Shown here: positions 5,819 to 29,827 of the stretch, piece after piece
How positions within the stretch are numbered: position 1 is the first letter of the stretch
Layout: each line of letters opens with the position of its first letter
NCBI RefSeq assembly: GCF_001579945.1
Contig: NZ_CP011971.1
Span: 3,036,030 to 3,100,029 of the forward strand
From: Steroidobacter denitrificans
Lineage (GTDB): Bacteria; Pseudomonadota; Gammaproteobacteria; Steroidobacterales; Steroidobacteraceae
DNA: 64,000 bases
Direction of reading: 5' to 3'
The notes under the pieces: model-generated
Told to the model about the DNA's origin: nothing
The model's database searches: none
The model's input: the letters and a program-made list of their open reading frames with translations, nothing else
Program-made: the position numbers and the translations under genes

Positions 5819-7095
5819 ATGCGTTTGCGATCAGCGGCATTGGCCGCGTTCGTCGTCGTGTGTGCCGTGGCATTTCCCACGCACGCCGCCGGCCCTCTTA
5901 CTCTGGACGACGCATTTTTTCGCGTTGCCAGCACTCACCCCAATCTGCGCCTGTTTGGCGCCCGCCATGAGGCCCTGGCAGCCGAGTTGGAGCGAGCCTC
6001 CTTGCGCCCGGCGCTGGTTGCTGGCGCCGAACTCGAGAACATGCTGGGTCCCGGCCCGGCCAGCGGTCTCGACAGCGCCGAGATCACGCTGAGCCTAGCT
6101 TCCGTGCTGGAGCGGGGCGGCAAGCTCGATGCCCGCCGCACGCTCGCGCAGAGCCGCATCGACGCGCTGGCCATTGCGCGCGAGGCGCAGCGGTTGGATC
6201 TTCTGGCCGAAGTGGCCCGCCGCTACCTCGCGGTCGTCGGTGCGCAACGGCAAGGCGAGCTCGCGCAGTTGGACGTCGACCAGCGCGAGCGCACCGTCGC
6301 TGCGGCACGCCGGCGTCACGAGGCCGGTGCTTCGCCCGAGGCGGTCGTACTCACCGCCCAAGCTGCTCTGGCACGGGCCGAACTGGACGGGGCTCGGGCT
6401 CGACAGCGTGAGACAGCCGCCCGCCAACATCTCGCGGCCCTTTGGGGCGAGCGCAATCCGGCATTCGAGATCGCTGGGGGCGATCCGCTGGCAGTGCCGC
6501 AGGTCGCGGACTTCGCGGTACTCGCCGACTGGCTGCAACGCACCCCCGAGCTCGCGCAGTTCGTCGACCAGCAACGCATTGGCGAGGCGCGGTTGCAGCT
6601 GGCGCGCAGCGAGGCGACACCCGACCTCGACTGGCAAGTCGGCGTCCGGCGGATGGCGGATGGCGATGACTTCGCCCTGGTTGGCAGTGTCTCGATCCCG
6701 CTGGGCACCACCAGCCGCGCGCAACCGGGCATCCGTGCCGCACGCGCCGAGTTGACGGCGTTGGAAATCGAACGAGAGGCTACGGGTCTGTGGCTCTACT
6801 CCACCCTTGCCGAGGCGCATGGCCGCTTCGGTGTGGCGCGCCTGGAAGCGCAGCGGCTGGGTGAGGACGTGCTCCCACGCCTGGCAAAGGCCGAAGCCGC
6901 GGCCGCCACCGCGTATCGCGCAGGGGCGGCCAGCTATCTGGAGTGGTCGAGCTTGCAGGCAGAGCGCGCCGCGGCCCGGCGGCAACAATTGGAGGCGGCG
7001 CTGGAAGCCCAGCGTGCCCTGATCGAGATCCAGCGGCTGACCGGTCAGGCCTTCGTCGTCGGCCCTGGCCCGCACGACAACCAAGGAGCAACGCC

Positions 7096-7099
<4 letters not shown>
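5819..7099 (+). CDS. czcC: CzcC-type outer membrane efflux factor (TolC family)
   Basis: This 426-residue protein has a signal peptide (LAAFVVVCAVAFPTHAAG) and the repeated long alpha-helical hairpins of TolC-family outer membrane factors, with two related halves. It forms the outer-membrane channel of the RND pump encoded by the next two genes. The stop overlaps the czcB start (ATGA). An AAGGAG ribosome-binding site for czcB (7083-7088) lies within its end. Confidence 0.85.
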
Positions 7100-11266
<4,167 letters not shown>

Positions 11267-16923: not shown

Positions 16924-17973
16924 TCAGAACCAGAAGCGCAGGCCGATCACCCACCGGTTGTCGGTTCTGGAATGACTGCTAAGCCCGCGCAGGTCCGACG
17001 TCTTGCCGAAACTCCATTCGCGCTCGAATCCCACGTAGGGCGCGAACTGCCGCGTGATCTCGTAACGCAAGCGGACGCCTCCCTCCACGGTACTCAGGCC
17101 CGCACCGATGACTTCCTCCGGATCGGTCTGCCCGAACCAATTGGCTTCGAGCCCCCAATTGGCGATCAACCGGTTGGTGAACAACATCTCATACTCGACC
17201 TCGACGATGGCCGCCGTCTCGCCGCCCTCTCCGACGTAGCCCGTTGCCGAGACCTCGAACTTGTAGGGCGCCAGACCCTGGACGCCGAACGCGGCCCAGT
17301 TGCGCGGCGTTCCGCCTCCACCGAAGTCACCAAAATCCCGGCGCACGCCGACCACGGCATCCCACCAGGGATGGATCGCGCGGCCGTACAAGGCTTCAAT
17401 CCGCCCGCGCTGCAGGCTTTCGTCCAGCGCGTGACCCTTGGTTCGCAACCAGAGGCGGTTGAGGTCGCTGCCGACCCAACCGATCCCCTCCCAGGCGATC
17501 TCCCTGCCTTCATCCGTGTTCGCCCCTTCCAACTGGTCCATGAGCCAGAACGAGTTCAGGCTGGTGCCGTGCTTGTGGTAATCCTTCAGCAACGGGAACG
17601 CCGCCGAGCGATCGGCATCGGTGAGAGGAGGGATGGGTTCGCGTGGCAGGGCGGGGTTCCCCATCTCGGAATGGTCCATCTCGGAATGGTCCATCTGGGA
17701 GTGGTCGACCTGCGGACGGTCCTGTTGTCCATGATCCATCTGCGCGTGGTCGTCACCACTGCCGGCGTGCTCGGAATGGGTCTCCTGCGAACGCTTCGAA
17801 TGATCCATGCCGGCATGGGGAGGCTGCGTCGTCGCATCTTCTTCCTGCCGGTCCGTCGTCGCACTTGACGTCGCAGGCTGGCCATGTCCGGCGTGCTGCG
17901 CGTAGGCGCCGACAGGGAGCGACAGGACGACGGCCAGCCCAGCCCACAGCATCGTTTTCGTTGGGCTCCTCAT
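16924..17973 (-). CDS. copB: CopB copper resistance outer membrane protein
   Basis: This 349-residue protein has a signal peptide (MLWAGLAVVLSLPVGAYAQ), a long His/Met-rich low-complexity region with MDHS repeats (near residues 60-115), and a C-terminal beta-barrel domain ending in WVIGLRFWF, a terminal aromatic typical of outer membrane proteins. It acts with CopA to sequester or export copper at the outer membrane. Its ATG overlaps the copA stop (ATGA). The start was chosen at the signal peptide; the upstream frame re-reads copA. Confidence 0.88.
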   Translation of the reverse strand: MRSPTKTMLWAGLAVVLSLPVGAYAQHAGHGQPATSSATTDRQEEDATTQPPHAGMDHSKRSQETHSEHAGSGDDHAQMDHGQQDRPQVDHSQMDHSEMDHSEMGNPALPREPIPPLTDADRSAAFPLLKDYHKHGTSLNSFWLMDQLEGANTDEGREIAWEGIGWVGSDLNRLWLRTKGHALDESLQRGRIEALYGRAIHPWWDAVVGVRRDFGDFGGGGTPRNWAAFGVQGLAPYKFEVSATGYVGEGGETAAIVEVEYEMLFTNRLIANWGLEANWFGQTDPEEVIGAGLSTVEGGVRLRYEITRQFAPYVGFEREWSFGKTSDLRGLSSHSRTDNRWVIGLRFWF

Positions 17974-19847
17974 TCTTCGACCCTCACTTCCCGGAACATG
18001 CCCGATTCCATGTGGAAGAAGAGATGGCAGTGGTAGGCCCAACGCCCGAGCGCATCGGCCCGGACTCGGTAGCTGCGCTTCGTGCCCGGAGGCATGTCCA
18101 CGGTGTGCTTGCGCAGATGGAAGTTGCCCTGTTCGTCTTCCAGGTCGCTCCACAGGCCGTGCAGGTGAATCGGATGCGCCATCATGGTGTCGTTCACCAG
18201 CACGATGCGCATGCGCTCGCCGTAGTTGAGGCGCAGCGGCTCGGCATCGGCGAACTTGATCCCGTCGAACGACCAGGCGAAACGCTCCATGTGCCCGGTC
18301 AGGTGCAGTTCGACCGTGCGGCCAGGCTCGCGCCCGTCGGGATCCGGGAACAGGCTCTTCAGGTCGGCATACGTCGCCACCTTGCGGCCGTTCCCGCGCA
18401 GGCCGATGCCCGGATCGGACAGTCGAGGCGCCGGCGTCATGGTCTGCATGTCGACCAGGGGGTTGCCGGTCTCGCTGGCCGGGTGCGCCTGCATCTGCAT
18501 GCCTCCGGCCGGCGCGCCCTGCATGGCCGTGGCCGAGGCGCCGTGGCCGGCATGTGGATCGACAGATGCTGCGGCACCATGGCCAGCGTGTGGATCCGAA
18601 GCCGGTGTGGCGCCATGCCCGGCATGCGGATCGGCGGCGGCCGGCGTCGCGCCGTGTCCCGAATGCGCGGCGTGGTCGCCGTGTCCCATGTCGGCCATGG
18701 TCAGCAGCGGACGCGGATCGACCGCCGGCACCGGTGCACGCAGCCCTTCACGCACCGCCAGCGTGCCGCTGACGTAGCCGGTACGGGCACTGTCCTGGGC
18801 AAAGAGGGTGAAGGCGTCCTGGCCGGTCGGTTCGACGATCACGTCGAAGGTCTCGGCGGTGGCGATGCGGATCTCGTCCACCGTCAGCGGATGGACGTAC
18901 TGGCCGTCGACCTCGACCACCGTCATCTTCAGGCCCGGGATGCGCACATCGAAGTAGCTCATCGCCGAGCCGTTGATGAAGCGCAGCCGGATCTTCTCGC
19001 CGCTGCGGAACAGGCCGGTCCAGTTGCCCAGCGAAGTGGTGCCGTTCATCAGGTAGGTGTAGGTGTGCGCGTTGACGTCCGACAGGTCGGTGGGCGTCAT
19101 CCGCATGCGGCCCCAGGCCGCGCGGTCGCTCAGGGTCGCACGCAGCCCGTCGTTGCTTACGTCGCGGAAGAAGTCCCCTACCGTCCGCTGGTAGTAGTTG
19201 TCGTACTCCGACAACTTCTTCAGGCGGGCGAACAGACGCGCAGGATCCATGTCGGTCCAGTCGGACAGGAACACCACGTAGTCGCGGTCGTAGGAGAACG
19301 GCTCGGGTGCGATGGGATCGATGATCAGCGGCCCGTACATGCCGCCCTGTTCCTGGAAGCCGGAGTGGCTGTGGTACCAGTAGGTGCCGCCCTGGCGAAC
19401 ATCGAACTCGTACAGGTAGCTCTCGCCGCGGCCGATGCCATCGAAGCTGAGACCGGGCACACCATCCATGTTCGCCGGCAGCAGGATGCCGTGCCAGTGG
19501 ATCGACGTGGAGTCACCGTGGATCGAGCCTGGGGGCAGGTCGTTGCGGACCCGCAGCTGCACCCGCGTGCCTTCGCGCCAGCGCAGGATCGGTGCGGGCA
19601 CCGAACCGTTGACGGTGATGGCGGGCCGCGTCTTGCCCGTGTAGTTGACCGCGGTCTCGCCCACGCTCAGGTCAAACTGCGTGCCGGCGAGAACTTCGAG
19701 CTGGCCCGGAGAGCGTAGTGCCCAGCTTTGCTTCGGCCACAGCCCCAGGCCCAGCACCGCACCCCCCGCCGCCAACCCTTGAACGAACTGCCTTCGGGAA
19801 AGCAGGCGTTGTTCTTCGACGTTCGCACCTGAAGGTCTGGATCGCAT
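17970..19847 (-). CDS. copA: CopA/PcoA-type periplasmic multicopper oxidase
   Basis: This 625-residue Tat-exported oxidase has the twin-arginine signal LLSRRQFVQGLAAGG. Copper-ligand motifs occur in order: IHWHGI, YWYHSHSG, HPIHLHG and WAYHCHLFFHMESGM, the last with the type-1 Met. A His/Met-rich insert (near residues 390-450) carries three tandem DPHAGHGA units. It oxidises Cu(I) to Cu(II) in the periplasm. ATG 19847 follows a TAGGAGA site. It is followed by copB and is expressed from a shared copper-box promoter about 225 bp upstream. Confidence 0.92.
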   Translation of the reverse strand: MRSRPSGANVEEQRLLSRRQFVQGLAAGGAVLGLGLWPKQSWALRSPGQLEVLAGTQFDLSVGETAVNYTGKTRPAITVNGSVPAPILRWREGTRVQLRVRNDLPPGSIHGDSTSIHWHGILLPANMDGVPGLSFDGIGRGESYLYEFDVRQGGTYWYHSHSGFQEQGGMYGPLIIDPIAPEPFSYDRDYVVFLSDWTDMDPARLFARLKKLSEYDNYYQRTVGDFFRDVSNDGLRATLSDRAAWGRMRMTPTDLSDVNAHTYTYLMNGTTSLGNWTGLFRSGEKIRLRFINGSAMSYFDVRIPGLKMTVVEVDGQYVHPLTVDEIRIATAETFDVIVEPTGQDAFTLFAQDSARTGYVSGTLAVREGLRAPVPAVDPRPLLTMADMGHGDHAAHSGHGATPAAADPHAGHGATPASDPHAGHGAAASVDPHAGHGASATAMQGAPAGGMQMQAHPASETGNPLVDMQTMTPAPRLSDPGIGLRGNGRKVATYADLKSLFPDPDGREPGRTVELHLTGHMERFAWSFDGIKFADAEPLRLNYGERMRIVLVNDTMMAHPIHLHGLWSDLEDEQGNFHLRKHTVDMPPGTKRSYRVRADALGRWAYHCHLFFHMESGMFREVRVEE

Positions 19848-20189
19848 GCATGATCTCCTATGATCGGTAGGGGCTGGCCGCAAGGGCGCCCGGTTCATCG
19901 CCACGATCCAGGCGATGGGAACCCGCGACGCCGGAGACGCCATCGTGGGGACGGATGCCGTTCAGCGTGCGCAAGACGAGCGCCGCGGCAGTGGCCGGAA
20001 TTCCCAATGGATAAGGGACTCAGGAATCATGCAACGGTCGGGATCGAGCACATGGCCATGAAACTCGCGTCATCACGGCCAGCTTAGGAGGAGGTCACTT
20101 TCGCCGGGATGACCCGTCCATTACATTCCCGTCATTGCAATGTCATTCCCGCTCGGCCAGCGGGTCGCAAGACCTATCGCGGGTCCGTT
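19848..20189. other. Intergenic leader of copAB (342 bp, no gene seen)
   Basis: No convincing ORF is present. It holds the copper-box promoter (20081-20140) and a leader of about 225 nt ahead of copA. The leader contains a potential 10-codon peptide (20059 down to 20027), which I do not call as a gene. The left edge of cueR transcription ends here as well. Confidence 0.6.
20081..20140 (-). promoter_or_regulatory. Copper-box promoter A (copAB)
   Basis: On the minus strand the box GTAATGGACGGGTCA (20124-20110) is followed after 23 bp by the -10-like TAAGCT (20086-20081). The 23 bp are 22 plus the C preceding the hexamer. The same box and identical spacing occur at three other promoters in this window. 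The box covers the -35 position, as expected for an activated promoter bound by an OmpR-family regulator such as CopR or CusR. Regulator identity is inferred. Confidence 0.75.
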
Positions 20190-20663
20190 CTACCTGCGCG
20201 GGGTCTTGCGCTTCCGGACCCCAGGCTCATCGACCGCGCCACGTCGGCGTTTGGGTTCTCCCGCCGCCGCTGCCGATGGCTGTTCCAGATCGGCCAGGAT
20301 CGGGCAATCGGGCCGATCGTCTCCCGAGCAGCCCATCACCAGTTGCTGGAGCGTGCCAGCCATCTCCTGCATGTCCGTGATCCGTTGCCGCAGATCTTCG
20401 ATATGGCCCAGGGCGATGCGCTTGACGTCCGCACTGCGCCGGCGGCGGTTCCGCCAGAGCTGCAGCAGGCCATCGATCTCGGCGACGGAAAACCCCAGAT
20501 CCCGCGCCCGCCGCACGAAGCGCAGTACGTGCACGTCGTTCTCTGTGTAGTTCCGGTAGCCTGCGTCCGTGCGGCTGGCCGCCGGGATCAAACCGGTCGC
20601 CTCGTAGTAGCGGATCATCTTGGCCGATACCCCTGAAGCGTTCGCTGCTTGACCGATGTTCAC
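20190..20663 (-). CDS. cueR: CueR-type copper-sensing MerR regulator
   Basis: This 157-residue regulator has the MerR winged helix ([23 protein letters not shown]) and the C-terminal copper loop CSGDDRPDC, the two-cysteine pattern of Cu(I)/Ag(I) sensors such as CueR. The basic tail (GEPKRRRG ... KRKTPRR) is longer than usual. Its start overlaps the ATPase gene's stop by 4 bp, so it is cotranscribed with its likely target. Two CueR-type promoters lie at 23261-23348. Confidence 0.88.
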
Positions 20664-23233
20664 GTCATCCTCCTTTCGACCGACCCGGTCGCACCGTGGC
20701 CGGCGGACGCGACGGCCTCTCCCGAAACATCGGGCCGGCCAGTCACCGCGGACGCCACGGGCGGATGGAACCGCCGCAGCCTGAGGGCGTTGCCGAGGAC
20801 GAAGACGCTCGACAACGCCATGGCGCCTGCCGCCAACACTGGCGAGAGCAGGACGCCGTAGGCCGGATAGAGCACGCCAGCGGCGACCGGGATCAGGGCG
20901 GCGTTGTAGCCGAACGCCCAGAACAGATTCTGCCGGATGTTGCGGATCGTCCCCTTCGACAGGGCGATGGCGTTGGGCACGCCCTTGAGGCTGCCCGACA
21001 TCAGCACCACGTCGGCCGCCTCGATCGCGATGTCGGTGCCCGTGCCGATGGCGATGCCCACGTCGGCCTCGGCCAGGGCCGGCGCATCATTGATGCCGTC
21101 ACCCACGAACACCAGATGGCCGTGAACGGCCCTGAGACGGCGCACCGTCTCGATCTTGCCTTTCGGAAGCACCTCGGCGACCACCTCGTCGATGCCGAGA
21201 CGGCGGGCGATGGCCTCGGCTGTGCGCCGATTGTCGCCGGTGATCATGGCGACCTTGAGGCCCAGCGCGTGCAGCGCGGCGATGGCCTCGGGCGTGGTGT
21301 CCTTGATCGGATCGGCAACGGCGATGACGGCCGCGAGCTTTCCGTCGATCGCGGCGTAGAGCGGCGACTTGCCCTCGTCGCCAAGCCGCTCCGCGATACC
21401 GGAAAAGGTGGCCACATCCAGGCCCAGCCGGTGCATGTAACGGTCGGCGCCGATCTGGATACTCACTCCGTCCACCATCGCCTCGACGCCGAACCCGGTC
21501 TCGGACCTGAAGCCAGCGACCGCCGGCAAGGTCAGGCCTTGGGCTTGGGCGGCTTCTACGATGGCATGGCCGACGGGGTGTTCCGACTTCGCCTCGACGG
21601 CCGCGATCCGCGCCAGTACCTGCGCGCGATCGAAGCCTTCGGCCAGTTCCAGATCGGTGAGCACCGGCCGGCCTTCGGTCAGCGTGCCGGTCTTGTCCAG
21701 TGCGATGACCTTCGCATCCTTGAGCCACTGCAAGGCTTCGCCCTTGCGGAACAACACGCCCATTTCGGCGCCGCGCCCGGTGCCGACCATGATCGACGTG
21801 GGCGTGGCCAGCCCCATGGCGCAGGGACAAGCGATGATCAGCACGGCGACGGCATTGACCAGCGCGAACGTCAGCGCCGGTGCCGGGCCGAAGGCGAGCC
21901 AGACGAGGAACGTCAGCAGCGCCACACCGATCACGACCGGGACGAACCACAACGTCACCTTGTCGACCAGTGCCTGGATCGGCAGCTTGGAGCCCTGCGC
22001 TTCCTCCACCATGCGGATGATCCGGGAGAGTACCGTGGCCTCGCCTACCGCGGTTGCACGGAAAGCCAGCGCGCCGTTCTGGTTGACCGTACCGCCGACC
22101 ACCGCGCTGCCGGCGGTCTTTGCCACCGGCACCGGCTCGCCGGTGATCATGGACTCATCGACGTAGCTGTCGCCATCGATCACCTCGCCGTCGACCGGAA
22201 CACGTTCGCCCGGTCGCACTTCGACAATATCCCCCGGCACGACGTTGCCGAAGGCGATCTCGGCCGTCTCCTCGTCACGGCGCACTCGCGCGGTCCGCGC
22301 CTGCAACCCAATCAGCCGCTGGATCGCCTGGGAGGCGCGCCCCCTGGCCCGCGCTTCCAGAAAGCGGCCGATGAGAATCAAAGTGACGATGACGGCCGCC
22401 GCCTCGTAGTAGACGTTGACCGCTTCCGCGGGCAACAGCGCAGGCATGAAGGTCGCAACCAGCGAGTAGGCGTAAGCCGCCAGGGTACCGACCGCGACCA
22501 GCGAGTTCATGTCCGGCGCCAGGCGGAACAGCGCGGGAAAGCCATGCTGGTAGAAGCGCCGGCCCGGCCCGAGGATCACCAGTGTCGTCAGCGCGAACTG
22601 GATGACCCAGTTCCACTGCATGCCGAGGGTGCGGTTGATCAGGTGATGCACGCCGGGAACGAGGTGCGCACCCATCTCCAGCACAACCACCGGCAAGGTC
22701 AGCGCGATGGACACGGCCACGGCGCGTTTCAGGGCCGCCTGCTCGGCGTCCTTGCGGACCGCGTCATCGGCCTCGCGCGAGGACGCCCGGTCGATCGGCC
22801 GCGCCGCGTATCCCGCGTCGTCGATGGCCTGGATCAGCAACCTGGCGTCCACACCCCCTTCCACGACTGCGCGCTCTGTCGCCAGGTTGACGCGTGCCGC
22901 CGTCACGCCGGGGACGGTACGCAGTGCGCGCTCCACACGTCCGACGCAGGACGCGCAGGTCATGCCCTCGATGGCGAGTTCGGTCTTGATGATCGGAACC
23001 GCATAGCCCGCCCTCTCGATGGCCCGGGCCAGTGTCCGGTGGTCGGCCGGTGCCACGGTCTGCACGTCGGCCCATCCGGATGCGGGATCGACGCTCGCAC
23101 CGTGAACGCCGGGGACGGCCCTCAGTGCCTGCTCGATCCGGCCGGCGCAGGAAGTGCCGCGCATTCCCGCGATGGGTAGGCGCACCGCCTCCAGTCGGAG
23201 GGAGGCGTCTTGTGAAGGGGAATCCATGTTCAT
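20660..23233 (-). CDS. copA: Cu(I)/Ag(I)-exporting P-type ATPase (P1B-1)
   Basis: This 857-residue inner-membrane pump has two N-terminal metal-binding domains. The first has lost its CxxC (GMRGTSC) and the second is intact (GMTCASC). Further motifs are the TGE loop (MITGEPVP), the transmembrane CPC motif ([15 protein letters not shown]), the phosphorylation site DKTGTLT, and [13 protein letters not shown] plus the later membrane Asn/Tyr and Met/Ser pattern indicates Cu(I) export from cytosol to periplasm. It leads an operon with cueR and is read from a CueR-type promoter at 23261-23291. Confidence 0.92.
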
Positions 23234-23317: not shown

Positions 23318-23348
23318 TTGACCTTCCAACGATGGCAAGGTCCATGAT
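23318..23348 (+). promoter_or_regulatory. CueR-type promoter for the CopZ-like gene
   Basis: TTGACC (23318-23323), a 19-bp spacer carrying the dyad ACCTTCC...GCAAGGT, and -10 CATGAT (23343-23348) match the CueR consensus closely. It is divergent from the ATPase promoter and points to the chaperone gene at 23379. Both are expected to respond to the CueR encoded at 20190. Confidence 0.85.
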
Positions 23349-23696: not shown

Positions 23697-24086
23697 TCAG
23701 TTGCAGGTACTCGGGTGGTCGGGCGGGGAGGGTCGATTGCGCCGCCACGACCATCCTCTCTCGATCTCGATTTGAAGTGCGACGCTCAAAAAGGTTCGGA
23801 TCAGCACGATCAGCGCAAGGATCGCGACGCCCTGCAGCGAGGGATCGATCGTAACGGTTCGGATGATGTCGGCGGCCACGAGAAATTCCAGGCCCAGTAC
23901 GATCGCGCCGCCGAGCTCCTGCCGCAGGGAGTGATATCGCGCCGTCAGTTCGAACCCCTTGTGGATGAAGGCGAATCGGCCGCAAGCCAACACGCTGCCC
24001 AGGGTGATGACCCCGACGCCGAACAACTCGAATCCCGCGACCGCGATCCCGATCGCCGCATGTGGCAAATCAGCGCTCATCGGCAT
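23697..24086 (-). CDS. DUF1622 membrane protein
   Basis: This 129-residue protein has three hydrophobic helices. FELFGVGVITLGSVLA, LGLEFLVAADIIRT and LIVLIRTFLSVALQIEIE are typical of the DUF1622 family of small inner-membrane proteins of unknown function. It begins 6 nt after the stop of the heptaheme cytochrome gene, so it is probably the last gene of that operon. Its role in the electron-transfer module is unknown. Confidence 0.8.
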   Translation of the reverse strand: MPMSADLPHAAIGIAVAGFELFGVGVITLGSVLACGRFAFIHKGFELTARYHSLRQELGGAIVLGLEFLVAADIIRTVTIDPSLQGVAILALIVLIRTFLSVALQIEIERGWSWRRNRPSPPDHPSTCN

Positions 24087-24092
24087 ATCCGG

Positions 24093-24896
24093 TCAATGGT
24101 GATCGTAGATCCCCACACCCCGGATGTCGTTCCATGAAGTGGTCTGGTGGCAGAGATAGCACTGCTCAGGTTCCGCATTCCTGACACCCGCTATCGGCTT
24201 GGACATCATTCCGAAGTGCTCCTTGTAGTGGCTGAGCGGCGCGAGGTGGCACTGGCCGCACTCGGTGGAACTCGGCGGTGGATGCCGGTACTCGGCAATC
24301 GACCATGTGGTCGTGCCGTGGCATGTCGCGCAGTCGTTTCCGAAGACCTGGACGTGCGGGTCGGTGGTCTTGTGGCAGCTCGCACAGTCCAGCAGCGTCT
24401 CCTTGTAAGTCATGCCGTTGGCAAGCGAGAGGTTGCCCGGCAGCGCCTCGGGCCGGTGTGCCTTGAGGTGCGCGAGCAGCACCGCCCCCTCATGACCCTC
24501 CGGGGCCCGATCGAGCCATCGCACGATGATGTCGGTCAAAGCCGCATGGTCCATACCACGCAGGCTGCGGCCGGCGTCGTGTTCCTTGTGGCAGGCCACG
24601 CAGTTGTTCGAGCCGGCGATGTCGGCATGGAATGCCGTCGGTTGTCGCTGGACCAGGACGGTCTCGTTTGCATGGCAGGCCACGCAAGTCGCGTCCTCCA
24701 CGCCCTTCACCGGCGTGTGGCACGCCGCACAGTCCTCTTTGAGAAACGCATGTGCGCTGGACAGGGGGCCCGGAGAGGCCATGTTCTGCCACGTCGCGGC
24801 GCGCTGCATTTGCGGAAGGTATGTCCACAGTGCGACTGCCGACACCGGCGCCAGGACCGCGAGCAGCGCGGCGAGGATCTTTCCCTTTCGACTCAT
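24093..24896 (-). CDS. Heptaheme c-type cytochrome, membrane-anchored periplasmic
   Basis: This 267-residue protein has an N-terminal signal or anchor helix (ILAALLAVLAPVSAVALW). Seven CxxCH heme-binding motifs follow: CAACH, CVACH, CVACH, CASCH, CATCH, CGQCH and CYLCH. The layout resembles cytochrome c3/c7-like multiheme electron carriers. Its ATG overlaps the stop of the upstream membrane-protein gene. As the periplasmic member of the operon it should take electrons from the membrane cytochrome b and pass them on; the acceptor is unknown. The frame upstream of the ATG re-reads the previous gene. Confidence 0.88.
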   Translation of the reverse strand: MSRKGKILAALLAVLAPVSAVALWTYLPQMQRAATWQNMASPGPLSSAHAFLKEDCAACHTPVKGVEDATCVACHANETVLVQRQPTAFHADIAGSNNCVACHKEHDAGRSLRGMDHAALTDIIVRWLDRAPEGHEGAVLLAHLKAHRPEALPGNLSLANGMTYKETLLDCASCHKTTDPHVQVFGNDCATCHGTTTWSIAEYRHPPPSSTECGQCHLAPLSHYKEHFGMMSKPIAGVRNAEPEQCYLCHQTTSWNDIRGVGIYDHH

Positions 24897-25582
24897 CTGA
24901 ACCAGCGCAACCCGAAGTAGATGCCAGCCCAGATATGCAACGCCAGCAGAAGATAGAAGATGATCGAGAACGCGATGTGTGCCGACAGCCAGGCGTTGAA
25001 CAGCCTGCGCACCCGCTCCTGGAACTGGATCGAGTACTGCAGATCGGCGGCGGCGGATGCCAGTGGCAGCAGTTCGGCGCTGGCCTTGGGCGTACCGGCA
25101 ACGCCCGCTGTTGGTCCTTGCGCGTAGGCCCAGTACTGCCCATCCAGAAGGCGCCACAGCCCGTCGATCTGCGCCTTCTTCTCGCGGATGTTCTCCGCGA
25201 CGTAGCGCAGATAATGCTGGCCGATGAACCCAGTGAGCACGCTCAGCAGCATCGATGCCGTCAGCGCGACGCCGAGCGCACTCTGGAACTTGTGCCCGCT
25301 ATGGAGGATGGCCAACAGCGCGCCTACCAAGCCGAAATAGACGTGCGCCTGCAGCAATGCGCCGAAGCCATGCTTCCTGGTGAATGCGCGGCGCAGCGTA
25401 GCGCTGCGCTTGATTACGGTGTAGGTGAGCGGGACGAGCATGAACGCCGCGCCTACGACGCCGAACACGCCACCCAGGAGGCTTCCGGCGAAGAAGGAAG
25501 AGCGGTGCACCAGGAAACCCAGCCACAGGACCACCAGCATCGAGAAGATGATCGTCGCGATGATGCGATCCTGGTTGCGCAT
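24893..25582 (-). CDS. Ferric-reductase-like transmembrane cytochrome b
   Basis: This 229-residue inner-membrane protein has about five helices. Two of them carry histidine pairs spaced exactly 14 residues (H-VYFGLVGALLAIL-H near residues 80-95 and H-IAFSIIFYLLLAL-H near 202-217), the bis-heme b ligand pattern of ferric reductases and NADPH oxidases. It begins 1 nt after the flavoprotein gene's stop and overlaps the cytochrome c gene. It is inferred to move electrons across the membrane from the flavoprotein to the multiheme cytochrome. I do not recognise a named family with this exact composition. Confidence 0.75.
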   Translation of the reverse strand: MRNQDRIIATIIFSMLVVLWLGFLVHRSSFFAGSLLGGVFGVVGAAFMLVPLTYTVIKRSATLRRAFTRKHGFGALLQAHVYFGLVGALLAILHSGHKFQSALGVALTASMLLSVLTGFIGQHYLRYVAENIREKKAQIDGLWRLLDGQYWAYAQGPTAGVAGTPKASAELLPLASAAADLQYSIQFQERVRRLFNAWLSAHIAFSIIFYLLLALHIWAGIYFGLRWFR

Positions 25583-27750
25583 CTACGCATCCACCGAGAT
25601 ATCGGCCGACGCTTTCGCCTGGCAGGCCAGGATCACGCCCGAGGAACGATCGAGTGGCGTCAGGCTGTCGTCCACGTCCATGGTGACCTCGCCCGACAGC
25701 AGCTTGATCTTGCAGAGGCCGCAGTAACCCTGCCGGCAGGCATATTCGATCGGAACGCCGACCTCTTCGGCGGCCTCGAGAACGGTCTGGCCGGCCGCCA
25801 GCGGCGCCTTTTTTCCGGACCGCTCGAAGCTGCAGGTGACGGCCGTCGCCGTGTCGCCCGCCGACACCTCCGGGCCGGGAGGCACTGTCCTGGAGGGGCT
25901 CAGGAACAGCTCGGAATGAACCGACGCCAGGTCGATGCCCAGCTTGCCCAGTTCGTTGCGGACCGCGTCCATCATCACCGGCGGACCGCACAAGTGGATG
26001 CGGCGCGAACGGATCTGCGGAATCTGCCCCAGCAGTTCGGCGGTGATGAACCCACGCGGGCCGGTCCATGCCGCCGATGACTCGTCGCTCAGCACGATGG
26101 ACACATGCAGGTTCGGATGCCGGCGGGCGAGTTGGTTCAGCTCGTCGCGGAAGATCACACTTTCCAGGTCCTTGCAGGCGTAGACCAGGTCGATCCGGCC
26201 GTTCCAGCTCTGGTCGGTCAGGTAGCGGATGGAACTCATCAGCGGCGTGATGCCGACGCCGCCGCCCAGGAACACGACACTGTCGGACTCGACGCCGCGG
26301 AAGGTGAAGCGGCCGTAGGGGCCGGACGCATCGAGGAGATCGCCTTCCTTCACCTGCTCGTGCAGGTAACCCGAGACGATGCCGCCGCTTTCGTGCTTGA
26401 CCGTCAGGTCGCACCAGCCGTGGCAGCATGGCGATGAAGCGATCGAATACGAGCGCTTGACCTGGTTCCCGCCTGAATGCACCGAAAGCGTGAGGAACTG
26501 GCCGGGCTCGAACTCGAACGGCAGCGCACCCACGCCCTCCACTGGCGCCAGCCGAAACGTCTTGACCTTGGGCGTCTCCTGGAAGACGCGTGCGACCCGC
26601 AGCTTGCCCACCCAGCCGCCCATGGTGGACACGGGTGCGCGTGCCTGCGGCTCGCCCTCGGCCGGCACGCCCGGAGACACGGGCGCCGCGGGGGCCGGCG
26701 CCACACCGGAACGAGGCGCAGCGGCGGGGGCCGGAGGCACCGGTGCCCCGGTGCGCAACGTGGCGAGGACCGCATTCGTGCGTCGGGTTCGCGCCACGTA
26801 CATCCAGGCGGCCAGCAGCGCAAAGGCCAGCAGCAACGCCATCGTGAAGTAGTGGAAGCCCGACAGGCCGAAGACGCCGTGCGCCGGGGCCGTGGTCAGG
26901 GGATCGGTCAGGTTCATCTCGCGCCGGAACCACGCCAGCGCGATCCCCCGCGGCGCCTGTCCTTCGGCCAGTGCGCGGTAGGCCGACAAGCCGCTGTCGA
27001 ATTCGCCCCAGGCCACGCGCATGCGGTCGGATGCTTCCTGCAGGCCGCCGTAGTCGTTGCGCTGGACCGCGTGCGACGCCTCCGACGACAGGGACGCCAA
27101 TAGCTGGACCCTTCGTGCATCCGGTGGTGGGCGAGCTGCTCAACGCTCGCGCGCCGCTCCGGCGGTAGATCCGGCAGCGCCATCAGCTGCGGATACAGCA
27201 GCTTGTTGAGGCGCCGATCCCGACCGCACTCGTCTCCGCGGCAGCCGCGCATCATGTCGTCCATCATGCCGCCCATGGAACCGGCCATCGATGCACCACT
27301 CGAAGCCGGCATGCTGGCAGTCGCGTCCGGGTGATGCGCGGCGTGATCGTCATCGCCCGCCGATGCGTCAGCCGGCGGTGTGGCGCTCATCGGCATGCCG
27401 TTCATCGGGCTGCTGCTTTGCGCCGGCATGCCATCGGCTGGCGCCGGCTGCGGTACCGCCATGCTTCCGGCCTTGTCCGGATGATGCGCGGCGTGATCGT
27501 CATCGCCCATCGGCGCGCCAGCCGGCGGCGTGGTGCCCATCGGCATACCAGCCATCGAGCCGCTGTCCCGGGCCGATGACGTGCCGGCAGCGTCCGGCTG
27601 CGCAGCCGTCGTGCCGCCGGTCTTGTCTGGCGGATGGGCTGCGTGTGGATCAGCAGCCGACTGAGCGCCGGCCGCTCCATGAGCCAGCAGCATCGCCAGC
27701 GTGGCCAGGGCGGCGACTCGCTTCCACCCCACGAAGCCTTCCGTCAGCAC
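25583..27750 (-). pseudogene. His/Met-rich membrane-anchored FAD/2Fe-2S oxidoreductase, frameshifted as read
   Basis: From ATG 27750 the frame gives a signal peptide, a His/Met-rich region with two GDDDHAAHH repeats, and a helical domain up to HRMHEGS. The rest (LLASLSSEASHAV onward) is in another frame, so one base is missing near 27098-27113. The second frame holds a membrane helix (FHYFTMALLLAFALLAAW), then FAD motif RSYSIASSP, NAD(P) motifs GGGVGITP and CGPPVM, and a C-terminal 2Fe-2S ferredoxin (CRQGYCGLC ... C). Restored length is about 722 residues. Topology would be periplasmic metal-binding N-terminus and cytosolic NAD(P)H reductase. The downstream part is fully intact, so a sequencing error or start at an internal TTG (27100) is possible. 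Confidence 0.75.
27331..27562 (-). repeat. Imperfect 150-bp-period repeat in the His/Met-rich region
   Basis: The block beginning at 27331 recurs at 27481, including the exact stretch GATGCGCGGCGTGATCGTCA. It encodes the two GDDDHAAHH-type histidine clusters and following Met-rich segments of the flavoprotein's N-terminus. It is a coding repeat, not an array of separate elements. Confidence 0.8.
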
Positions 27751-27764
27751 CGCGGCGGCCTCCG

Positions 27765-28292
27765 CTACATATGGCCCATCTTCTTCTTGGCCATGCCCCC
27801 GCCCATGCTCGAATCCATCTTCTGCATGGTGGCGTCGACCTTCTGCATCTGCATCTCGCAGTGCTCCATGTCCTCCTTCATCTGCTGCATGTGCTGCATC
27901 GTGGCGGGCATGTCCATGTCCTTATGCGCGGAGGCATCGCCAGCCTTCATCGCCATGGCCTGCTGATGCATCTGCATGCTGCCTTCCTGCATCTGTCGGC
28001 CCATGGCCTCCATGGCTTGCCCCCGTTCGCGCATCATGGCTGCCATCTCCTCCATGTGCGTGGCCATGGCATCGGGCGTTGCGGGCGCATTCTGAGAAGC
28101 AGGGGACTTCGGATCGGTAGGGTGCGCCGCTGGAGCGTGAGGTGCCGCCGGGGTGCTGGCGGGCTGCTGCCCCATGGCGCCTGGCATGGCATCCTTCTTG
28201 TGCATGTCATCATCAGCCAGTGCCGCGCCAGCGAGCGCGACACCCAGGATGCAGACCATGACAAGTGACGGCCGACGATAGTGCTGCTTCAT
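27765..28292 (-). CDS. Methionine-rich secreted protein
   Basis: This 175-residue protein has a signal peptide (MVCILGVALAGAALA) and then a proline/alanine/histidine linker. The helical C-terminal half is exceptionally rich in Met, Gln and Glu (MATHMEEMAAMMRERGQAMEAMG; MQHMQQMKEDMEHCEMQMQ), with one cysteine. Met-rich periplasmic proteins commonly bind Cu(I) or Ag(I). It is the first gene of the five-gene operon, 14 nt ahead of the flavoprotein gene, with GGAGG before its ATG, and is read from copper-box promoter D. No named family recognised. Confidence 0.8.
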   Translation of the reverse strand: MKQHYRRPSLVMVCILGVALAGAALADDDMHKKDAMPGAMGQQPASTPAAPHAPAAHPTDPKSPASQNAPATPDAMATHMEEMAAMMRERGQAMEAMGRQMQEGSMQMHQQAMAMKAGDASAHKDMDMPATMQHMQQMKEDMEHCEMQMQKVDATMQKMDSSMGGGMAKKKMGHM

Positions 28293-28436: not shown

Positions 28437-28555
28437 GATGCCGCAATCTCCTCGTAATACGACGCCGGCACTGGAGGAAGGTCCTACCGGAAGAAAGTGC
28501 CACTTCGGATGCCACTCTGTTCGCGTTCAAGAAGTGACAAGATGATTACGCAAAT

Positions 28556-28599
28556 GTAATGACTGGGTCATTCAGCTGAAAGCAGGCCCTTCCTAGGCT
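28556..28599 (+). promoter_or_regulatory. Copper-box promoter C (28640 gene)
   Basis: GTAATGACTGGGTCA (28556-28570) is followed after 23 bp by TAGGCT (28594-28599). Spacing is identical to promoters A, B and D. It would start transcription near 28606, about 35 bp before the ATG at 28640. Confidence 0.74.
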
Positions 28600-28639: not shown

Positions 28640-29011
28640 ATGAAATCCATCAAAGCGTCGTGGGTCATTTTGTTGTGTGCGATGTTCGCAGTAGCCGTTC
28701 CGGTCTACGCGCAGCAGCCCACCGAAGAACCGATCGTGAAGCTGCTCAACGATATGGCGGACAAGCCGGAGAATCATCTGGCCATCGCCGCGTACTACCG
28801 CACGCTGGCCGGCGACGCGCTGGCTGAAGCCGAGAAGCACAAGGCGATGCGCAACACCTATCGGCACGACCACCAGAAGTTCAAGTCTGGAGCTGCCACG
28901 GGGCAGTCGATGGCACGGCACTGTGACCGGCTGACCAAGCTCCAGGAAGAGACCGCCGCAGAGTACGAGGCGCTTGCAAAGCTCCATGAAGCTGAGGCGG
29001 CAGCGAAATAA
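28640..29011 (+). CDS. Small secreted helical protein of unknown function
   Basis: This 123-residue protein has a signal peptide (SWVILLCAMFAVAVPVYAQ) and then an almost entirely alpha-helical, charged sequence (YYRTLAGDALAEAEKHKAMRNTYRHDHQKF) with several His, a single Cys (RHCDRL) and an Ala/Glu-rich end. I do not recognise a family. GGAG precedes the ATG. It is monocistronic: its own copper-box promoter lies upstream and a strong terminator follows at 29032, which suggests it is strongly and specifically induced. Confidence 0.8.
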   Translation: MKSIKASWVILLCAMFAVAVPVYAQQPTEEPIVKLLNDMADKPENHLAIAAYYRTLAGDALAEAEKHKAMRNTYRHDHQKFKSGAATGQSMARHCDRLTKLQEETAAEYEALAKLHEAEAAAK

Positions 29012-29631: not shown

Positions 29632-29783
29632 CACGATCTCCGTGAGAACTCGGAGCGAGTCTATACCCGCCCCCTGATAACGGGAGGTGACCACCAGATC
29701 GAGCCCACTTCACGGCGCCAGCGACGCTCATCTGCACACGCTCAGACCGACCCAAAAAACGGCGTCATTTTCATGACGGGAAT

Positions 29784-29827
29784 GTAATGAACGGGTCACC
29801 TGTCTGACAGTGGCGGCTCTGCATGCT
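29784..29827 (+). promoter_or_regulatory. Copper-box promoter B (DUF411 gene)
   Basis: GTAATGAACGGGTCA (29784-29798) is followed after 23 bp by CATGCT (29822-29827). The flanking ATGACGGGAAT just upstream is shared with promoter A. It would start transcription near 29834, about 75 bp before the DUF411 ATG. Confidence 0.72.

Follow-up and report, generated by a model that had tools for sequence, protein, structure and literature searches.

A conserved three-gene unit as a candidate NAD(P)H-driven transmembrane electron conduit in bacterial copper islands

In a stretch of 64,000 nucleotides from Steroidobacter denitrificans (contig NZ_CP011971.1, positions 3,036,030 to 3,100,029 of the forward strand; hereafter the window), an operon within a copper island encodes a membrane-anchored reductase with FAD, NAD(P) and 2Fe-2S (Fer2) domains, a small membrane cytochrome b and a seven-heme cytochrome c, and the same triad recurs in other bacteria. 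With about even confidence, the triad is read here as an NAD(P)H-driven transmembrane electron conduit in copper handling, which would most likely reduce Cu(II) on the His/Met-rich periplasmic head of the reductase itself. The sequence directly shows which parts are present, in what order, how they and their His and Cys residues are conserved, and that the setting is one of copper; an electron path from NAD(P)H through FAD, the 2Fe-2S centre and the b-hemes to the c-hemes would follow from the families to which the proteins belong, and Cu(II) is inferred as the acceptor.

The operon is read on the minus strand from 28292 to 23697, in the order Met-rich protein, reductase, cytochrome b, cytochrome c and DUF1622 protein. 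The first gene (27765..28292, taken from the list of open reading frames, ORFs) encodes a secreted Met-rich protein of 175 aa with a signal-like start and no Pfam family above cut-off. After a gap of 14 nt comes the reductase, which in the window is divided between two frames: 26914..27750 encodes a signal-like start, the periplasmic head with the motifs HxxHHP and MxxMMxxM, and the start of a helical hairpin, while 25583..27100 encodes the remainder of the hairpin, a single transmembrane (TM) helix and the Pfam domains FAD_binding_6, NAD_binding_1 and Fer2. The ATG of the cytochrome b gene (24893..25582; a five-helix membrane protein of 229 aa) abuts the reductase stop, the cytochrome c gene (24093..24896; a membrane-anchored periplasmic protein of 267 aa) overlaps that of cytochrome b by 4 nt, and a further gap of 6 nt leads to the DUF1622 membrane protein (23697..24086; Pfam PF07784, E 3e-23). 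An earlier note on this DNA had described five genes on one strand, overlapping or no more than 14 nt apart, and had named the Met-rich secreted protein and the DUF1622 protein among them; the operon-like packing and the presence of both proteins are confirmed.

Conservation was evaluated by a scan of a collection covering 84,980 species, for which 12 sequences of the membrane protein were aligned as the query; this gave 224 confirmed relatives; the best 80 were kept as loci, and all genome-locus counts refer to these 80, divergent contexts lying outside the sample. The reductase, cytochrome b and cytochrome c genes are co-linear, on one strand and in a fixed order in 80/80 loci, with the reductase stop no more than 80 nt from the cytochrome b match in 75 and ~2 kb between the two genes in another two (L064, L088). 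Because the search was made with the membrane protein alone and all 80 of its best loci carry the triad, this recurrence is far beyond chance. The proposal in the earlier note of a single five-part system conserved together thus stands for the three middle genes and not for the outer two: the Met-rich gene is matched by tblastn in 13/80 loci, those in which cytochrome b is 85-100% identical to that of the window, and a DUF1622 gene lies directly 3' of the cytochrome c gene in 16/80. A five-gene system is too wide for these counts and was rejected; three parts plus accessories fits instead, the accessories being the Met-rich protein, the DUF1622 protein and a heavy-metal hairpin protein matched by tblastn in 27/80 loci (PF13801 by Pfam in two examples). 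A stretch 87% identical to the Met-rich gene region also occurs elsewhere in the S. denitrificans genome (C1:3007340-3008109), ~28 kb before the start of the window.

Judged by record title, the loci come from about ten phyla (Pseudomonadota, Planctomycetota, Bacteroidota, Nitrospirota, Acidobacteriota, Verrucomicrobiota, Hydrogenedentota, Elusimicrobiota, Chloroflexota and one bin called Cyanobacteria), many of them being metagenome-assembled genomes (MAGs). Cytochrome b is matched in 52 plasmid records and cytochrome c in 53, and several Stutzerimonas genomes encode the membrane protein of the window with a rounded identity of 100%; because of these plasmid matches and this identity, the cassette looks mobile. 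Of 296 genomes from the order to which the window belongs, only one besides that of the window gave a strong protein match (G091), and a DNA search of 21 close relatives found one same-genus genome (G340) with pieces 68-77% identical on two contigs.

The alignments that follow are chosen subsets of the relatives (A4, 38 sequences; A5, 36; A6, 28; A7, 22). The earlier note had seen in the membrane protein two His pairs, each spaced 14 residues apart, and had taken it for a heme protein. Both points hold up: the HX13H pairs are H80/H94 and H202/H216, and these four residues, together with His 26 and His 97, are invariant in 38/38 aligned cytochrome b sequences. In a predicted structure (mean predicted local distance difference test score, pLDDT, 82.6) H80/H94 lie on helix 73-94 and H202/H216 on helix 161-226, which in our reading of the model would be the third and fifth membrane helices; from the invariant pairs we infer two b-hemes. 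At a permissive threshold (Pfam, E up to 1), DUF4405 is matched by 19/38 cytochrome b relatives (best 9.7e-6) and Ferric_reduct by 6/38 (best 1.2e-3), some relatives also matching cytochrome b561 models; profile searches of the PDB gave no significant match for cytochrome b or for cytochrome c. By profile-profile alignment (hhalign) against 17 PCC3-type proteins the probability is 99.1 and E 1e-18, making the cytochrome b, at the level of sequence profiles, a remote relative of PCC3-type inner-membrane proteins. The 17 comparison proteins, of ~300 aa, are weak matches within the window's order, labelled PCC3-type by their length, their HX13H pairs and, in the 6/17 inspected, a many-heme cytochrome downstream, porins being outside the criteria. 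Two HX13H pairs occur in 27/28 PCC3-type loci, and a many-heme cytochrome follows in all six loci inspected, with 21 CxxCH motifs in the four that were opened fully; the ~300-aa proteins agree with the PCC3 cluster described by He et al. (2017; PMC5566968), for which those authors proposed two b-hemes by analogy with ferric reductases. Among the relatives, cytochrome b carries a C-terminal DUF547 domain in Planctomycete and Hydrogenedentote loci (L070, L084, L092, L114), and in a Legionella anisa plasmid (L039, 11179-11796) it is, as annotated, short and has no second His pair.

The seven-heme cytochrome c of the earlier note is likewise found well beyond the window. Seven CxxCH motifs and exactly seven other His are invariant in 36/36 aligned sequences, and exactly seven CxxCH motifs are present in 77/80 genome loci and 11/12 plasmid loci; the counts that depart from seven are those of L053 (3), L073 (6), L105 (6) and one of the 12 plasmid loci (4). 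With exactly seven extra invariant His, the simplest reading is that each heme has one distal His and none a free site, so that the cytochrome c would be a wire rather than the catalyst. Locus L053 is that of Stutzerimonas stutzeri KOS6, whose cytochrome c frame contains only three CxxCH motifs. On a Methylophaga plasmid (L042, 15879-23105), an operon for cytochrome c maturation begins downstream of the triad, at a distance of 3 kb.

The reductase has a common layout in 28 aligned sequences: a signal-like start, HxxHHP, MxxMMxxM, a predicted helical hairpin, one TM helix and the FAD, NAD(P) and Fer2 domains. The TM helix contains an invariant His and an invariant Met and is positively charged on its inner flank, and the four Cys of the Fer2 domain are invariant. 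The hairpin is taken from a model with a mean pLDDT of 75.7, low over the first 33 residues. Among PDB entries, a profile of the reductase matched flavin and ferredoxin reductases in large number. As a rule, His sites favour Cu(II) and Met sites favour Cu(I); the two head motifs are both present in 28/28 aligned reductases; in a strict form the pair is found in 62/92 loci and in 0/1823 control ORFs, and in a relaxed form, a pattern that has no control of its own, in 86/92. Of the six loci without the relaxed pair, five are at contig ends and one (L088) has an insertion, with its His motif further upstream. In L043, where tblastn missed the reductase, the gene is annotated as an FAD-binding oxidoreductase and the head is legible in the sequence. 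The encoded head of the window includes His/Met-rich segments specified by a 150-base repeat (2.1 copies, 27325-27645), and the length of this stretch varies among relatives.

The earlier note had described a single reductase with a His/Met-rich head; the domains and the His/Met-rich head are as stated, but it missed a one-base change of frame near 27.1 kb that splits the gene in the window between the two frames given above. The reductase is a single ORF of 672-743 aa in 13/14 compared relatives, the fourteenth (L050) being cut by a contig end, and the closest relative (L052, a Pseudoxanthomonas MAG) aligns over 4618 bases at 99.87% identity, the differences being 5 mismatches and one gap opening. 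When the S. denitrificans genome was searched with an intact reductase from a relative, the two halves were found adjacent and no second copy was present. The window's copy is thus either broken by mutation or misread through a sequencing error, and as a frame-broken gene it may be inactive. A separate head gene as the native state in the window was considered and rejected, because close relatives carry one ORF. No slippery site for a programmed frameshift was seen near 27.1 kb, on inspection by eye only. In four other loci (L073, L085, L087, L107) the head with its TM part and the reductase are in separate overlapping frames, which diverge within the linker that follows the TM helix.

The copper link that the earlier note had drawn is borne out by comparison with controls. 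Copper context was counted in the 53/80 loci flanked on each side by 9 kb or more (repeated Legionella and Stutzerimonas loci were retained; a thinned set has 31 loci), against 26 hand-placed control stretches, each 19 kb or longer, taken in 16 of 40 triad-carrying genomes. At least one of three markers (multicopper oxidase, metal P-type ATPase, CopB) is present in 51/53 full loci and 1/26 controls; separately, multicopper oxidase is found in 47/53 versus 0/26, metal P-type ATPase in 21/53 versus 1/26 and CopB in 25/53 versus 0/26. The thinned set (n=31) gives 26 loci with multicopper oxidase, 16 with the ATPase, 17 with CopB and 29 with any marker. RND pumps (15/53 versus 3/26) are not clearly enriched. 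CopB is present in 25/40 genomes searched and lies inside the fetched locus in 20/25, where 0.2 would be expected (coordinates counted by eye). When ORFs were clustered in 45 loci, hand-picked from 92 and with antisense ORFs left out, multicopper oxidase was the commonest family after the triad (30 loci), followed by P-type ATPase (18) and the heavy-metal hairpin protein (16), the families being those assigned by Pfam to ten cluster representatives. The genetic linkage of the triad to copper genes is far above control.

Other genes share these islands. The triad is found near NiFe hydrogenase or hyp genes in two Alteromonadaceae plasmids (L037, L046) and in L115, and six islands (L041, L043, L093, L095, L120, L122) contain glycogen, glucoamylase, phosphoketolase, alcohol dehydrogenase or glutamate dehydrogenase genes.

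Within the window, the island continues downstream of the operon on the minus strand with a heavy-metal P-type ATPase (20660..23233; matching plasmid stretches are annotated heavy metal translocating P-type ATPase), a CueR-like regulator of the MerR family (20190..20663; Pfam), a multicopper oxidase (17970..19943; Pfam, with matching plasmid genes annotated copper resistance system multicopper oxidase) and the copper resistance protein CopB (16924..18153; PF05275, E 1e-74). An RND efflux set (OEP, a CusB/HlyD-type adaptor and an AcrB-type pump by Pfam) occupies 5819..11266 on the plus strand. Regulatory sites were sought with presumed CopR and CueR consensus sequences. A candidate CopR-like box, TTACA-N5-GTAAT (28545..28559, minus strand), lies between the operon and the divergent gene at 28640, and near-matches precede the multicopper oxidase gene (at 20120) and the gene at 29810 (at 29773); over the scan there are 7 matches with at most one mismatch, palindromes being counted twice, versus 1.3 expected. 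The three palindromes, which resemble one another, suggest a single two-component regulon. In Stutzerimonas copies, CopR-like boxes occur elsewhere in the island. A candidate CueR-type box with no mismatch is located upstream of the P-type ATPase (23321..23341, plus strand). Control of the conduit by CueR was considered and rejected, the perfect box belonging to the ATPase and no box with up to 3 mismatches being found upstream of the conduit operon.

In the mechanism proposed for the triad, the membrane-anchored reductase would pass electrons from cytosolic NAD(P)H through FAD to its 2Fe-2S centre, the domains being evident and the flow being that expected of their families. The electrons would then enter the five-helix cytochrome b, whose two HX13H pairs would hold two stacked b-hemes across the membrane, and from there the periplasmic cytochrome c, whose seven hemes, probably bis-His, would act as a wire. 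The likeliest acceptor would be Cu(II) bound to the periplasmic head, with HxxHHP for Cu(II) and MxxMMxxM for Cu(I). Cu(II) on the head is favoured because the head belongs to the reductase itself and its motifs are among the most constant features outside the redox domains. By this means the cell would control how oxidised the copper in its periplasm is, close to the multicopper oxidase and the exporters of Cu(I).

Several points weigh against this proposal. It is paradoxical that a resistance island should turn Cu(II) into Cu(I), the more toxic form, and co-location is no proof of function; the reductase of the window is itself frame-broken, and the strict head pair is absent from 30/92 loci. 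Taken by itself, the cytochrome b of the window falls into no Pfam family above cut-off; its model drew no solved fold from Foldseek at E 0.001 or better, and neither did a second model, of the reductase hairpin region, in a fold search. A CopR-like box stands upstream of the operon in only 1/13 relatives scanned (L061), and the CueR box is missing there in the window. None of the three copper markers is present in two of the full loci (L099, L115), and in several islands hydrogenase, glycogen, alcohol dehydrogenase or glutamate dehydrogenase genes accompany the triad.

Because the triad is so closely tied to multicopper oxidase, the main rival is that the conduit feeds this oxidase, directly or by a Cu(I)/Cu(II) shuttle, so that NAD(P)H is burnt with O2 in the periplasm; this would provide an electron sink under copper stress once copper has damaged the Fe-S enzymes of respiration. 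The oxidase is the commonest neighbour after the triad in full loci as in clustered ones and is absent from controls, and a bis-His wire would require a catalyst outside itself. However, the oxidase is not in the operon, its match being at a distance of 2-10 kb (median 6.8 kb) from the start of cytochrome b; it is missing from 6/53 full loci, and the head motifs would be left with no direct role. This rival is considered unlikely. A further reading, in which triad, head and multicopper oxidase form a closed copper redox cycle (electrons from NAD(P)H reducing head-bound Cu(II) to Cu(I), the oxidase with O2 returning it to Cu(II)), is somewhat more doubtful still. A general periplasmic electron dump or supply of reductant in stress islands, for which copper islands are merely the commonest home, would account for the two marker-free loci and for neighbours that include hydrogenase genes (L037, L115), a CBM48 protein, glucoamylase and alcohol and glutamate dehydrogenases, but leaves unexplained the His/Met motifs of the head and a contrast of 51/53 with 1/26 in copper markers, and is thought quite unlikely.

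Another reading is that Met or thiols oxidised in the periplasm during copper stress are repaired by reduction, in the manner of MsrPQ with its flavin reductase. It follows the same logic of flavin reductase, ferric-reductase-type cytochrome b and periplasm, and would give the Met-rich partner and the Met-rich head a place. Repair of oxidised periplasmic proteins in E. coli under copper stress is the subject of one paper (PMC9302797). Against such a role, no Msr or thioredoxin-like domain was found in the six reading frames scanned, and the Met-rich gene is confined to 13/80 loci; repair is considered improbable. Least probable is a role like that proposed for PCC3, in extracellular electron transfer or in the respiration or oxidation of metals. 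In its favour, the inner-membrane proteins of PCC3 type are homologues of the cytochrome b, and CopB, by its known family an outer-membrane protein, is near in 25/53 loci; but the operon has no porin or giant cytochrome (the wider loci were not searched for them), its partner is an NAD(P)H reductase, and its seven hemes compare with 21 and, where complete, 37-39 in the PCC3-type loci checked. Reduction of Cu(II) on the reductase head remains the preferred reading.

The kind of system is known in pieces: a flavin reductase, a ferric-reductase-type cytochrome b and a multiheme cytochrome. In the sections of PMC5566968 consulted, PCC3 and PCC4 are linked to the quinone pool and to iron, not to NAD(P)H or copper, and shorter HX13H membrane proteins are mentioned beside multiheme cytochromes, mostly with no porin and mostly with another redox protein; the triad may be among these shorter-protein clusters. 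Like PCC3 and PCC4 as described in those sections, the triad has a five-helix membrane protein with two HX13H pairs on helices 3 and 5 adjoining a periplasmic multiheme cytochrome c. Unlike them, its five-gene operon has no porin or giant outer cytochrome (a statement about the operon, wider loci not having been searched for porins), its cytochromes are paired with a His/Met-headed NAD(P)H-FAD-2Fe-2S reductase, and the setting is one of copper; the CopB found near the triad belongs to another family than the PCC3 porin.

In the ferric reductase superfamily (NOX, yeast FRE, MsrQ), a FAD/NAD(P) reductase feeds a bis-heme cytochrome b whose His pairs are 14 residues apart. The triad shares the FAD/NAD(P) reductase, a cytochrome b of presumed bis-heme type and the His spacing, but divides these between two genes, adds a 2Fe-2S domain and would send electrons onward to a seven-heme cytochrome c; the Pfam similarity of its cytochrome b to the superfamily is only remote. 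MsrPQ combines a cytosolic flavin reductase, a membrane cytochrome b and a periplasmic reductant, and the triad has the same scheme from cytosolic flavin reductase through membrane cytochrome b to periplasm, with a multiheme cytochrome in its operon instead of the molybdopterin protein MsrP. The cop, pco, cus and cue systems consist of an oxidase, an outer-membrane protein, carriers and pumps, with no transmembrane electron conduit; they have the island, and perhaps regulators, in common with the triad, which would add such a conduit. CcoG is a membrane protein with two 4Fe-4S clusters. Like CcoG the triad would reduce Cu(II) in bacteria; unlike it, the operon has one 2Fe-2S Fer2 domain, and its Pfam and NCBIfam lists contain no CcoG-like match. 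A paper on the cupric reductase CcoG (PMC7558416) attributes to it two iron-sulfur clusters and an electron donor that is not known.

In the literature searched, a coverage that leaves most subscription papers and preprints outside, no account of the triad, its head or its copper link was found, nor any experiment, expression study or mutant that bears on it. The main text of two papers on Alteromonas copper plasmids (PMC8478169, PMC4781885) does not contain the words 'cytochrome', '2Fe-2S' or 'ferredoxin', and in one on Pseudoxanthomonas under copper (PMC10667631) 'cytochrome' appears once, in the introduction.

The proposed conduit would provide a context for a cytochrome b family that is mostly labelled hypothetical protein in the plasmid records listed, where the neighbours of its gene are annotated as cytochrome c3 family or 2Fe-2S protein. 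If real, the conduit, which in most full loci lies within 10 kb of a multicopper oxidase, would add a redox arm to copper resistance, and control of the periplasmic Cu(I)/Cu(II) ratio would become directly testable. Should the more doubtful closed cycle of head and oxidase prove true, the islands would carry a copper-driven, non-pumping periplasmic oxidase, mobile and spread over about ten phyla, that would both tune the redox state of copper and rescue the supply of NAD+ when copper poisons respiration.

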